This document shows positions 11,594 through 63,957 of a stretch of DNA of 64,000 bases, one piece after another. The DNA is taken from positions 1-64,000 of the forward strand of contig NZ_QEKH01000006.1 in NCBI RefSeq assembly GCF_003096415.1, read 5' to 3'. The position numbers and the translations under genes were made by a program. The notes below the pieces were generated by a model. It saw only the letters and a list, made by a program, of their open reading frames with translations. It was not told where the DNA came from and did no database searches. Position 1 is the first letter of the stretch. Each line of letters opens with the position of its first letter. The DNA is from Victivallis vadensis. GTDB lineage: Bacteria; Verrucomicrobiota; Lentisphaeria; Victivallales; Victivallaceae.

Positions 11594-11606
11594 TACCGCC
11601 TCCGCC

Positions 11607-12441
11607 CCGGGATTTCGCCCTTTGGGCGACCAAGGCGCTTCGCCCTTGGAACCAGACCGGCAAGGTGCCGGTGCCGAATACTTGAGATCCGGGAAAGGCG
11701 TTTCGCCTTTCCCTCCGGGTGGGGGAGCTCTGATGGAGACAGGCATGGTTGTACAGGAGCGGCACACCGCTCCGGTCGGCGACCGCGTCGGCTTTTTTGC
11801 CCGGAATGACGAGTACGGCGAAGCCGCACGGAGGAGTGGAGGGAGGGGCCCCCGAAAAGTACCCGCAGCTTTTGGGCAAAGCCCAAAAGTCCCGAGGCCC
11901 GTGGCCGAAGGGAGGCAACTTTTTGGGGAAGAGGGCACTCCCTGCGCCTGCTGCCGCCGGAGGTCACGCTCGGAACCTCCAGATGCTGACCGGGAAATAG
12001 AAAGATACCCTGATGGAAGCTGATAAGAATTTATCTGCCGATATACGCAAAGCGAGGTCAGGCAACAATGCAATTGTCATATCACAGACAAGCATATCTT
12101 TGAGTACGAGCCTTACTGAACCTTGCCTGCATGATAGAGACAGGCAGAGTTCAGCCTCCATGAGTGTAACTTCACATCATCCGGTCAGCATCTGGAGGTT
12201 CCGAGCGTGACCTCCGGCGGCAGCAGGCGCAGGGAGTGCCCGGCGTCGGCAAAAAAGCCGACGCGGTCGCCGACCGGAGCGGTGTGCCGCTCCTGTACCC
12301 GCTTGCCTGTCCACAGTAGAGCCTCCCCCACCCGGAGGGAAAGGCGAAACGCCTTTCCCGGATCTCAAGTATTCGGCACCGGCACCTTGCCGGTCGGGTT
12401 CCAAGGGCGAAGCGCCTTGGTCGCCGAAGGCGAAATCCCGG
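11607..12441. repeat. Element E1: long inverted-repeat hairpin element, copy 1 (with E4)
   Basis: A non-coding element between the convergent ends of pflA and the GH106-like gene. Its outer 13 bases are perfect inverted repeats (CCGGGATTTCGCC at 11607, complement ending 12441). Arms of about 250 bases are inverted copies of each other and consist of small hairpins, for example GGGAAAGGCG-TTT-CGCCTTTCCC (11691-11713) and CGTCGGC-AAAAAA-GCCGACG (12244-12263). A core at about 12004-12180 is about 88% identical by eye to that of E4. The left arm carries an extra block of about 131 bases (11802-11932). Open frames inside it are by-products of the repeats. It could be a structured RNA, a bidirectional terminator region or a non-autonomous mobile element. 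Confidence 0.8.
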
Positions 12442-16735: not shown

Positions 16736-17098
16736 AGCCAATAAACTGATAGACACAGCCCAAAGCGAGTCGTGTAAAAAAAGCCTGCCGTTGTAAATCC
16801 GTCCGCCCTGTCGGGCGGCAGACCTTGTGCGCTGCGCGGCCTGATTTGCAATCGCATCTCCGGCAGCCGGGCGCTACGCGCACAAAGTGTCTTCGACGAC
16901 AAGGGCACTTCGTCCTTTGACCCCGATCGGGTAGCCTCCGGTGGCAAGTACTGCCGATAGAGCCAATAAACTCATAGATAATAACCCCGGTTTTGAGATT
17001 TTTGCGCAGTAAAAAGCTCGAAACCGCACCCGGCGCCGGCCCCTTGCCAGTCGGGGGGGACCGGGAGGTGAAGCGCCCCCGGCCGCCGGAGGCATGCA
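16736..17098 (+). repeat. Element E2: hairpin repeat, family B
   Basis: A non-coding element between the convergent araC-type gene and mntP. Blocks shared with E3 and with the reverse of E5 are, in order: a GC-rich hairpin, 'GCAGACC', a long stem (TTGTGCGC...GCGCACAA) enclosing 'GCCTGATTT', a GTCT-CGACG block, a GG(G)CA-hairpin, an 'AGATAATAACCCC' block and the terminal CCGCCGGAGGCA. A short direct repeat (AGCCAATAAACT) occurs at about 16736 and 16960. It is more diverged than E3 or E5, and some stems are imperfect. Confidence 0.7.
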
Positions 17099-19935: not shown

Positions 19936-20655
19936 TCAGCGCGGCTGCGCGGTCAGCGTTGCAAGCAGCGCTGGCACCGCGACTTCGGTGCGCAGCGTGC
20001 GGCGGCCGAGCGTGACCGGCGTGACGCCGTGACGGGCCAGCAGATCAATTTCATAACCGGTGAAGCCGCCCTCAGGACCGATCACCAGCGCGGCCGGCCC
20101 GCGGCTCCCGACCGGAATCGGCTCCGTCGCAGCGGGATGCCCCGCATAGGCCGGACGCCCGGCGAGAATACCGGGAAGCTCATCCTCCACGAACGGCTTG
20201 AACCGGTTGCGGAATTCGATCCGGGGCATCGCCGTGTCGCCGGCCTGTTCCAGCGCGAGACGGCAGGTTTCATCCAGCGAAGCGGTTTCGAGGTTGGGGC
20301 TGGACCAGTAGCTTTTGTCCACTTTCCAGCAGGCGATGAACCAGAACTCCTTCACTCCCATCGTGACGGCGGCGTGCAGCACCTTCTGGAAAGTCTTGGG
20401 GCGCGGCAGCGCCGCGATCAGCGTGACCGGCGACGGTTCCGGCGGAGGCACCGTCAAGTCGGGACGCAGTGTCGCGGCATCCGCGCCGATCTCCAGCAGC
20501 TCGGCAGTCCCGGTCAGGCCGTTCAGCATTCCCGCCTTGCAGAACTTGCCCGGTTCGGCCTTGATCACCTCCAGCAACTGCCGGTGGCGGCGTCCGGCGA
20601 TCCGGACGAGGCCGGGTGCGATATAGTCGCTTTCGTCTAACAACAGGAGATTCAT
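19936..20655 (-). CDS. rsmE: 16S rRNA (uracil-1498-N3)-methyltransferase RsmE
   Basis: A SPOUT-class methyltransferase that modifies U1498 of 16S rRNA. It has 239 residues with a PUA-like N-terminus ('AGRRHRQLLEVIKAEPG') and the C-terminal trefoil-knot motifs 'LVIGPEGGFTGYEIDLL' and 'LGRRTLRTEVAVPALLATL', which are diagnostic. It is the last gene of the minus-strand group running from the DUF2059 gene, but element E3 separates it from pgi, so co-transcription is uncertain. Confidence 0.93.
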   Translation of the reverse strand: MNLLLLDESDYIAPGLVRIAGRRHRQLLEVIKAEPGKFCKAGMLNGLTGTAELLEIGADAATLRPDLTVPPPEPSPVTLIAALPRPKTFQKVLHAAVTMGVKEFWFIACWKVDKSYWSSPNLETASLDETCRLALEQAGDTAMPRIEFRNRFKPFVEDELPGILAGRPAYAGHPAATEPIPVGSRGPAALVIGPEGGFTGYEIDLLARHGVTPVTLGRRTLRTEVAVPALLATLTAQPR

Positions 20656-20694
20656 TTCGGACTTTCCGTGGTTATGTCAAAAAGAAAGGGGAAA

Positions 20695-21004
20695 CTTGCC
20701 GCTTACGGCAAGCGGGTCTGCTTGCCCTGACGGACAGCAGACCTCCGTGGGCTCACGGCCTGATTTTCAATCAGGCACCTGAGCTGGGCGTTTCGCCCAC
20801 GGAATGTCTCCGACGGGCAAGGCGCTTCGCCCTTGCAACCCGACCGGCGACGTGCCGGTGCGGTAAACCGTCCATAGAATAGACTTATAGATAATAACCC
20901 CGTTTTAGAGATTTTTGCACAGCAAAAATCTCTAAAACGTACCCGGCGCCGGCACCTTGCCGGTCTGGGGTCCCGGGGGCGAAGCGCCCCGGGCCGCCGG
21001 AGGC
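20695..21004 (+). repeat. Element E3: hairpin repeat, family B
   Basis: A non-coding element filling the pgi-rsmE gap. It contains TTGCCG-CTTA-CGGCAA (about 20698), GGTCTGCT...AGCAGACC, a 9-bp stem TCCGTGGGC...GCCCACGGA that encloses GCCTGATT-TTC-AATCAGGC, then a CAAGG-type hairpin, ACCGGC-N5-GCCGGT, a long TTTTAGAGATTTTTG...CAAAAATCTCTAAAA hairpin (about 20911-20938), a GGCGAAGCGCC hairpin and the terminal CCGCCGGAGGCA. The 9-bp stem aligns with a different but equally complementary stem in E5. Open frames here are repeat artefacts. Confidence 0.75.
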
Positions 21005-21007
21005 AGG

Positions 21008-22579
21008 TTACTTGACGGTATAGTACCAGGCGTTCGCCATCGTGCAGAATTCACGAGTCACGTGCGGGCAGTTCGCCGCGGCCTTGTCGAGCAGCCCGCC
21101 GATTTCGACGGCCTGATCGGGTTCGCCGACCTTGGCCGCAATCTCCTCGGCGGTGCCGGAAACGCCTTTCAGCTCGGCGATCTTCTTCATCAGCGTTTCG
21201 CGCAGCGTCAGGATGCCCTTCGCCGCCAGCTTGTAGGCCTGCACGCCGGGCTGGTGGAACGCGTTGATGTTGATGAATTCAGCGTAAACCGCGACCGCGC
21301 GCTCGTAGAGGGCGATCACCATGCCGAGAGTGCGCTCGTTGACCTCCGGGATGCGGATCGTGATGATCTGGCGCCCCTTGCCGCGCAGCGCGGCGCTGAG
21401 TCCTTCAAGGAAGCCGTGCAGGTAGTTGCCCATCGTATTGGCGTCGGTGATCGGCAGGCGTTTCGCATCCTTCATCACTTCAATGAAAGTCGCAAAGAAG
21501 TCGTCGCGGCCATCGTTGAGCTGCTGGATAAAGGCGTGGGCGTCAGTGCCGCCCTTGTTGCCGAAGACGTTCAGCCCCTGATGGACCTCCTTGCCGTCGA
21601 GGTCGAGCGCCTTGCCGAGGCTCTCCATCACCAGCTGCTGCATATAACGCGACAGCAGGATCAGCCGGTCGGAGTAAGGCACGATCACCATATTGCGGTC
21701 GCCCCTGCCGTTGCCGGCGATATACCACATCGCGGCGAGCATCATCGCCGGATTCTTACGCGGATCGGCGGTGCGGGTCCACTCGTCCATTTTACAGGCG
21801 CCTTCGAGGAACGCCTTGAAGTCCACCCCGGTCAGCGCGGCGGGAAGATGGCCGACGATGCTGGTTTCGCTGGTGCGCCCGCCGATGGATTCGGCCATTT
21901 CGAAAACCGCGAGGAAGCCGGTTTCATGGGCGTGTTTGTCAAGTTCGCTGCCTTTCATCGTGATCGCGGCGGCGTGCTTCGCGAAGGAGAGTCCCTTTTC
22001 GGCGTAGAACTTCTCCATGGAGATCATGTTGTTCTTGGTCTCCTGGGTGCCGCCGGATTTGGAGATCACCAGATGCAGCGTGGCCGCCGGATCCATCACT
22101 TCAAGCAGGTCGGCGAATTCGGCCGAATCGGTGTTGTCGAGGAAGTAAATCTTCAAATAGCCGTTGCGCTGCGCGTCGGATTTCTCGTTCCAGTAGGGGC
22201 CGTTGATCGCGAACTGCATCAGCTGCGGGCCGAGCGCGGAGCCGCCGATGCCGTTGACCACGACCGCGTCGAACTTCCTGCCGGTTTCGCCGGTGATTTT
22301 ACCGGTGCGGACCTTTTCGGCAAACTCCTCGACGGAGGCGAAAAGCGCGCTTTTCGGATACTCGATGCGGTCGGAAAAGTGGGTGACCTTGCGGTTTTCA
22401 TCCGGGTTCTTGACCGCTCCGGCTTCAAGGCGGGCCATTTCTCTGGCGGCGCGCTCGAATTTCGGCGCGAGCTTGTCGAGGTCGGCGTCGGTGAATTTCA
22501 TCCCGGCGAAAGCGATGGAGAAGTTGTCGGCCGCGTCGACCAGCGTATAGGCGCGGTTGCGTTCGATCCAGTTGTTCAT
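21008..22579 (-). CDS. pgi: Glucose-6-phosphate isomerase
   Basis: Interconverts glucose-6-phosphate and fructose-6-phosphate in glycolysis and gluconeogenesis. It has 523 residues. PGI motifs include 'VVNGIGGSALGPQLMQ' near 145, 'VISKSGGTQETKNN' near 210, 'GRTSETSIVGHLP' near 265 and a C-terminal 'INAFHQPGVQAYK' that carries the catalytic Lys/His region. GGAG lies 10 bases upstream of the ATG. It follows the DUF815-like ATPase gene by 29 bases. Confidence 0.94.
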   Translation of the reverse strand: MNNWIERNRAYTLVDAADNFSIAFAGMKFTDADLDKLAPKFERAAREMARLEAGAVKNPDENRKVTHFSDRIEYPKSALFASVEEFAEKVRTGKITGETGRKFDAVVVNGIGGSALGPQLMQFAINGPYWNEKSDAQRNGYLKIYFLDNTDSAEFADLLEVMDPAATLHLVISKSGGTQETKNNMISMEKFYAEKGLSFAKHAAAITMKGSELDKHAHETGFLAVFEMAESIGGRTSETSIVGHLPAALTGVDFKAFLEGACKMDEWTRTADPRKNPAMMLAAMWYIAGNGRGDRNMVIVPYSDRLILLSRYMQQLVMESLGKALDLDGKEVHQGLNVFGNKGGTDAHAFIQQLNDGRDDFFATFIEVMKDAKRLPITDANTMGNYLHGFLEGLSAALRGKGRQIITIRIPEVNERTLGMVIALYERAVAVYAEFININAFHQPGVQAYKLAAKGILTLRETLMKKIAELKGVSGTAEEIAAKVGEPDQAVEIGGLLDKAAANCPHVTREFCTMANAWYYTVK

Positions 22580-48838: not shown

Positions 48839-49544
48839 CCGGTATTTCGCCTTCGGCGACCAAGGCGCTTCGCCCTTGGAACCCGACCGGCAAGGTGCCG
48901 GTGCCGAATACTTCAGATCCGGGAAAACCGTTCCGGTTTCCCCTCCGGACGGGGGAGGCTCCGGTAGAGACAGGCATGGTTGTACAGGAGCGGCACACCG
49001 CTCCGGTCGGCGCAAAGCCTGCTTTTTTGCAGGCTTTAGGCACTCCCTGCGCCTGCTGCCGCCGGAGGTCACGCGCGGAACCTCCAGATGCTGATCGGGT
49101 AATAGACAGATACTCTGCTGGAGGCTGATAAGAGTTTATCTGCCGATATACGCAAAGCGAGGTCAGGCAACAATACAATTGCCATATCACAGGCAAGCAT
49201 ATCTTTGAGTACGAGCCTTATTGAACCTTGCCTGTATGAAAAGGCGTGGAGAGTTCAGCCTCCATCAGAGTAACTTCACATCAGATGGTCAGCATCTGGC
49301 CGTTCCGCGCGTGACCTCCGGCGGCAGCAGGCGCAGGGAGTGCCCGGCGTCGGCAAAAAAGCCGATGCGGTCGCCGACCGGAGCAGTGTGCCGCTCCTGT
49401 ACAATCTTGCCTGTCTCCATCAGGGCTCCCCCGCCCGGAGGGGAAACCGGAACGGTTTTCCCGGCTCTCAAGTATCCGGCACCGGCACCTTGCCGGTCGG
49501 GTTCCAAGGGCGAAGCGCCTTGGTCGCCGAAGGCGAAATCCCGA
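48839..49544. repeat. Element E4: long inverted-repeat hairpin element, copy 2 (with E1)
   Basis: A non-coding element between the convergent ends of the PHP gene and argA. Ends are CCGGTATTTCGCC and GGCGAAATCCCGA (12 of 13 complementary). The left arm (to about 49096) and right arm (from about 49286) are near-perfect inverted copies of about 255 bases; a core of about 190 bases between them is shared with E1. Stems differ between copies but stay paired: AAAGCCTGC-T6-GCAGGCTTT (49014-49037) against CGTCGGC-A6-GCCGATG (49348-49367), and TTGCC/GGCAA (49179-49196) where E1 has TTGTC/GACAA. It lacks the extra block of E1. No coding capacity. Confidence 0.82.
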
Positions 49545-63712: not shown

Positions 63713-63957
63713 GCTGCCTCCGGCGGCCGGGGTATTATCTGTCAGTTAATTTGCTCTACCGGCGGTATGCGCCACCGGGTGCTACCCGGTCGGGTTGCAA
63801 GGCGAAGCGCCTTGCCCGTCGGAGACAGTTGTGCGCTATGCGCCCAGCTACCGGAGCCTGATTGAAAATCAGGCCGCGTAGCGCACAAGGTCTGAAGGCC
63901 GCAGGCCGTAAGACCCGCCTGCCGCGAATGCGGCATGGCTTCCCCCGGCAGATATGA
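63713..63957 (-). repeat. Element E5: hairpin repeat, family B, between nrdD and probable nrdG
   Basis: A reverse-orientation relative of E2 and E3. It starts with TGCCTCCGGCGG (complement of the family's terminal CCGCCGGAGGCA). Read on the minus strand it has GCCGC-ATTC-GCGGC, GGTCT...AGACC, the 9-bp stem TTGTGCGCT/AGCGCACAA around GCCTGATT-TTC-AATCAGGC, the CAAGGCG hairpin, ACCGGGT-AGC-ACCCGGT and AGATAATACCCC. It lies inside the likely nrdD-nrdG transcript, so it would be present as RNA. Confidence 0.75.

Follow-up and report, generated by a model that had tools for sequence, protein, structure and literature searches.

The question raised by this locus is whether the complementary replacement of hairpin stems between copies of a repeat reports a conserved folded RNA or events that took place at the level of DNA. 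Within the window, a 64,000-nucleotide stretch of the Victivallis vadensis genome, the initial annotation had singled out three related elements (E2, E3 and E5) in which a 9-bp stem was replaced by a different but still complementary one, and had read this as strong evidence for a conserved folded molecule. Inspection of the letters bore out the description. The E3 arms are TCCGTGGGC (20744-20752) and GCCCACGGA (20795-20803), which close hairpin H3 (20744-20803, plus strand; sequence and covariation), and the minus strand of E5 reads CAGACC-TTGTGCGCT followed, further on, by AGCGCACAA-C-TGTCTCCGACGGG. Seven of the nine pairs differ between TCCGTGGGC/GCCCACGGA and TTGTGCGCT/AGCGCACAA, all nine are Watson-Crick, and the blocks GCCTGATTTTCAATCAGGC, CAGACC and GTCTCCGACGGG around the swapped stem are unchanged. 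The stem reported for E2, TTGTGCGC/GCGCACAA, is present, and the second example put forward, ACCGGC-N5-GCCGGT in E3 against ACCGGGT-N3-ACCCGGT in E5, is likewise exact. Only the extent of the element had been drawn slightly too narrow, at 20695-21004 instead of 20692-21005.

E3 is a full-length composite palindromic repeat of ~314 bp on the plus strand (20692-21005; nhmmer score 272.8 bits, spanning model positions 2-318; 75-83% identical to other copies in the own genome), and the element as a family consists of seven to nine hairpins in series and of two REP-like units of ~60 bp that face opposite ways, with an inverted similarity of 76%. From left to right along the plus strand, E3 comprises H1, CTTGCCGCTTACGGCAAG (20695-20712; sequence and fold); H2, GGGTCTG..CAGACC (20713-20743), for which other copies carry several discrete stem alleles; H3 with its core hairpin GCCTGATTTTCAATCAGGC (20758-20776; sequence and covariation); a forward REP-like unit (20806-20859) made of GTCTCCGACGGG, H4 (20817-20836) and H5, ACCGGCGACGTGCCGGT (20843-20859); and H7 (20901-20939), with an 18-bp stem and a loop that is inverted in several copies. 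An inverted REP-like unit on the minus strand (20943-21005; H8 and H9) closes the element with the end CCGCCGGAGGCA. The motifs AGCTGG, CAGACC and TGTCTCCGACGG are conserved and unpaired. The stretch is not a tRNA. The 314 nt of E3 fold with a z-score of about -12 as RNA on either strand, and likewise as DNA on the plus strand, and the predicted folds (RNA of both strands, DNA) share a long-range helix running from 20805 to 21005. E2 (16781-17094, plus strand) is a full copy with H1 partly deleted, and E5 (63715-63938, minus strand) has an internal deletion of H7-H9 and retains the tail CCGCCGGAGGCA at 63715-63726. The window also holds two family A composites, at 11600-12440 and 48845-49540, which are probably the elements labeled E1 and E4 in the initial annotation; they are near-palindromes of ~700-850 bp, 86-91% identical piecewise, with the E3-type REP-like unit in inverted orientation at either boundary; an inner repeat, also inverted, lies around CCTCCAGATGCTGACCGG.

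Searched by nucleotide similarity, the own genome (5.2 Mb in 87 contigs, 99.5% complete) yielded dozens of copies that are 75-92% identical, some of them arrayed in tandem with a period of 332 (cluster C32). A profile run over the retrieved stretches recognized at least 83 copies scoring more than 50 bits, of which 39 are full length. When a covariance model was built from H2-H5, it matched at least 77 times in the own genome and 31 times in a sister species, G005; outside these two genomes its matches were absent or weak, those in other families and orders covering mainly the H4-H5 unit, the portion that recurs across the order, and not the whole architecture. The G005 copies have the same layout with other stems (outer TGCGGGC/GCCCGCA, with one pair mismatched in some copies; core CCGAATC/GATTCGG) and conserve both AGCTGG and the tag CTCCG(A/G)CGG. 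A degenerate pattern, AGACC-N-AGCTGG-N-TGYCTCCGRCGG, was also tried and matched 44 times among genome contigs and once among viral contigs; the eight matches that were read, both Lentisphaerae records among them, were all unrelated and apparently coding. Separately, two further sister species (G002 and G003; loci L048 and L054) contain numerous repeats of a related unit, CGTCCGGCAAGGTGCCGGTGCCGGGTACGG, and at both of the loci read a pseudopilin-like sequence adjoins the repeats. No REP-like family described for the Lentisphaerota clade was found, and the present, large family adds one to it.

Covariation was scored on 42 pairs in 39 copies (28 from the own genome, 11 from the sister species). 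Stem cells were able to pair in 95.8% of cases, and double changes occurred at 21 of the 42 pairs. The covariation score was 0.370, compared to 0.158 for shuffled controls and 0.048-0.069 for slid controls; since the slid control retains relatedness, the signal is not a phylogenetic artefact alone. Covariation, the absence of which over tens of copies would have spoken against a conserved fold, is thus found here far above controls. Together with the preservation of the layout in G005 despite other stems, it upholds one half of the earlier claim, and a conserved hairpin architecture is supported by the comparison of copies. The other half, that the conserved molecule is an RNA, depends on how the matched changes arose.

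In the case that first drew attention, the inner stem was swapped along with the outer one (GCTAC/GTAGC to GCTCA/TGAGC), so that more than nine pairs moved together. Among the copies compared, moreover, the E3 stem allele occurs in E3, L009 and L042 only, which makes it, within this genome, one allele and not many events. The E3/E5 difference is therefore best read as the replacement of one ready-made hairpin by another rather than as seven compensated mutations, and the insertion of stems as units, the origin which the initial annotation had itself set against its claim, largely describes it. Yet another stem allele, the third, was found in a single own-genome copy (L021): TCGCAC..GTGCG, with CCGGATC/GATCCGG as its core. 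Each hairpin of the element comes in a few discrete alleles, and across 32 full copies linkage between hairpins was almost absent, with the adjacent H5-H6 fully linked and H1-H7 marginal; a second classification, of 39 full copies, distinguished 37 haplotypes, and linkage reached Bonferroni significance for no pair of blocks. E3 is itself chimeric by module, its H2 and H3 being 97-98% identical to those of L009, its H4 100% identical to those of L010, L016 and L017, and its H5-H6 matching L014 and L036 best. Selection for compensation one base at a time, with no exchange of modules, would fit the several standard pair types seen at some pairs (columns 13-22 and 9-25, for example) and the presence of a few G·U intermediates; set against the intact recurrence of the full E3 stem in L009 and L042 and the discrete, shuffled hairpin alleles, this course of events appears distinctly unlikely.

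Further variation in modules was noted in several copies. A small additional hairpin module, GGCGGCAAGGTGCCGCTGCCGTGAC, lies inside H3 in L019, L027, L038 and L041 and takes the place of most of H3 in L029 and L035. In L021, two tandem copies have in common a further hairpin allele, a longer H4 with GGTTACCGAAGCCGACGTTCGGCC in it, and a stretch similar to GGTTACCGAAGCCGACGTTCGGCC sits beside the H8-H9 unit in L009. At L018 (1641-2640, minus strand), copies are arrayed in tandem and one segment is duplicated; here H1-H3 precede ~600 bp of unrelated sequence, which may be a reversed reading frame, and then comes a half-element; the segment looks like a gene end duplicated together with the element.

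A second kind of change was apparent once copies were oriented. The H7 loop is inverted between its arms in three backgrounds (three exact pairs), the H5 loop is inverted once, and the whole H2 hairpin is inverted once with one residual mismatch; controls in which sequences were reversed only or complemented only gave no exact cases. Inverted spacers of this kind are typical of the footprint that template switching on DNA would leave. Template switching is known to create stems and compensatory changes (PMC8794818), and to homogenize arms and invert spacers (PMC8604942). The inversions, the equal folding of both strands and this known mechanism together point to DNA-level events. The element resembles hairpins evolving by template switching (quasipalindrome correction) in that arm homogenization and loop inversion occur without RNA selection, and differs from plain evolution of that type in being a dispersed repeat which also exchanges whole hairpins.

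The position of the copies relative to genes is strikingly constant. With gene calls made heuristically, 58 of 61 copy clusters have a gene running toward the element at its CCGCCGGAGGCA end (orientation 58:3, p 3e-14), the distance from stop codon to element has a median of 12 nt and is at most 15 nt in 32 of the 58 clusters, and the neighboring genes are uni-directional in 30 clusters, convergent in 22 and divergent in none. E3 conforms to this rule, lying 2 nt beyond the stop codon (TAA) of a phosphoglucose isomerase (PGI) gene (PF00342; 21008-22579, minus strand), between it and the next gene downstream, which encodes an RsmE-type RNA methyltransferase domain (PF04452; 19936-20655, minus strand). 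In a sister species (G006), a gap of 4 nt is all that separates the PGI and methyltransferase genes. Thus, the element either arrived later in the V. vadensis lineage or was lost in G006, and arrival is the likelier since other relatives also lack the element there, although their neighboring gene differs. The right end reads CCGCCGGAGGC(A) in nearly all copies. Many left flanks of full copies end in GCCGGAGGCGAGTCGCGGGG, which resembles this right end, and new copies may tend to land beside an existing unit.

Multiple intergenic copies, an empty site in a sister species, inverted units at 76% similarity and the symmetric family A elements bounded by the REP-like unit would all suit a MITE, that is, a non-autonomous relative of a DD(E/D) insertion sequence whose terminal repeats are the inverted REP-like units. 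The inverted units, however, do not lie at both outer ends, the outer left end (H1-H3) forming no inverted repeat with the right end; no target-site duplication was recognized in the flanks of the copies, and no parental transposase was identified. We consider this derivation rather doubtful.

Strict placement behind stop codons could also mean a selected function in mRNA. Were the element a cis-acting structured RNA, transcribed as the 3' UTR of the preceding gene and selected for its fold in the mRNA (for stability, termination or control of translation termination), the compensatory changes would be ordinary RNA covariation. The strong covariation, the fixed orientation at a median of 12 nt past the stop codon, the z-score of -12 on the gene strand and, on that strand, the weak T-rich tail of the 18-bp H7 stem all agree with such a role. 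An RNA selected on one strand, though, should tolerate G·U on that strand and not A·C. Mismatches were counted only at pairs predicted on both strands, because a structure predicted for one strand biases the count. The element has 33 G·T and 48 A·C cells (14 and 24 types), against 23 G·U and 0 A·C (11 and 0 types) in a control of 22 tRNAs from the same genome; over the whole element, the types number 33 for G·T and 27 for A·C. Strand-specific tolerance of G·U, evident in the tRNAs, is thus absent from these counts, in which G·U is not more frequent than A·C, and the surplus of A·C types (24 versus 14) leans toward pairing on the gene strand without being significant. As the test is weak against mild RNA selection, a mild RNA constraint on the element is compatible with its outcome. 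Also against a cis-acting RNA stand the free assortment of stems, the near-identical folding of the other strand and of DNA, and a search of the E3 stretch against Rfam, at gathering and relaxed thresholds, which retrieved no family and only sub-threshold microRNA models. A cis-acting RNA is thus possible, though not likely. Conserved unpaired motifs (AGCTGG, CAGACC and TGTCTCCGACGG) and covarying stems might equally be expected of a family of trans-acting non-coding RNA genes with their own promoters, but no promoter-like site was seen in 20600-21100, E3 was inserted between two adjacent genes, and at least 77 highly mosaic copies are nearly all tied to the stop codons of unrelated genes, making this origin very improbable. 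Wobble symmetry, exchange of stems as whole modules, spacer inversions and REP/BIME-like behavior leave the RNA part of the earlier claim unsupported; the coordinated base changes resemble a swapping of modules in DNA and do not amount to proof of a conserved RNA.

Like REPs and BIMEs, the element is palindromic, extragenic, non-coding, present in high copy number and found near the 3' ends of ORFs, with mosaic hairpin combinations and inverted unit pairs. Most REPs are situated behind ORFs, where the neighboring genes run in one direction or converge (PMC3733652), and the present copies are never found between divergent genes. At ~314 bp, the element far exceeds REPs and simple REPINs in length; it carries seven to nine hairpins as one unit and is locked at 58:3 in its orientation to the stop codon; the unpaired GTAG or CGTC at the hairpin foot that tags the REP superfamilies of those names is absent, the right end being CCGCCGGAGGC(A). 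With REPINs, in which compensatory changes are common (PMC3116915), it shares two inverted REP-like units, a self-folding spacer, compensatory changes in the spacer hairpin and tandem clusters, and it differs from them in the extra H1-H3 module outside the inverted pair. Mobilization by a RAYT was considered and set aside: no match to Y1_Tnp/RAYT (PF01797) was found in the own genome, and the Y1_Tnp genes of sister species are not flanked by the REP-like unit of the element. To judge from its sequence, the element works like the REP/BIME/REPIN class; owing to its length, outer H1-H3, orientation rule and missing tag and RAYT, it is not filed as a RAYT-mobilized REPIN.

Taken together, we favor, with a probability of about 0.7, the reading that E2, E3 and E5 all represent one composite palindromic repeat, non-coding and of REP/BIME/REPIN type, changed by module exchange and template switching. 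Such a repeat would have spread as non-autonomous mobile DNA from the shorter H4-H5 REP-like unit found across the order. Short-tract recombination or gene conversion between copies would then swap whole ready-made hairpins, keeping stems complementary, and template switching between hairpin arms would re-perfect and invert stems, perhaps also with selection on a hairpin in single-stranded DNA or mRNA. The likely effect on the host would be protection of the upstream mRNA 3' end, partial termination, or slowing of the ribosome at the stop codon. The last is suggested by analogy, REPs within 15 nt of a stop codon being able to stall ribosomes according to PMC12306157, which cites Liang 2015. 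More speculatively, and in our estimate quite unlikely, the hairpins may be modular, interchangeable cassettes, actively or very efficiently reshuffled between copies and anchored behind stop codons, the whole array serving the upstream gene as a tunable device in its 3' UTR.

Covariation is often held to be the best proof of a functional RNA; in this family, strong covariation is better explained by DNA-level hairpin exchange and template switching. Two simple diagnostics, the symmetry of G·U and A·C with a tRNA control and the linkage between hairpins, bear on this distinction. The tie of the family to stop codons is unusually strict.
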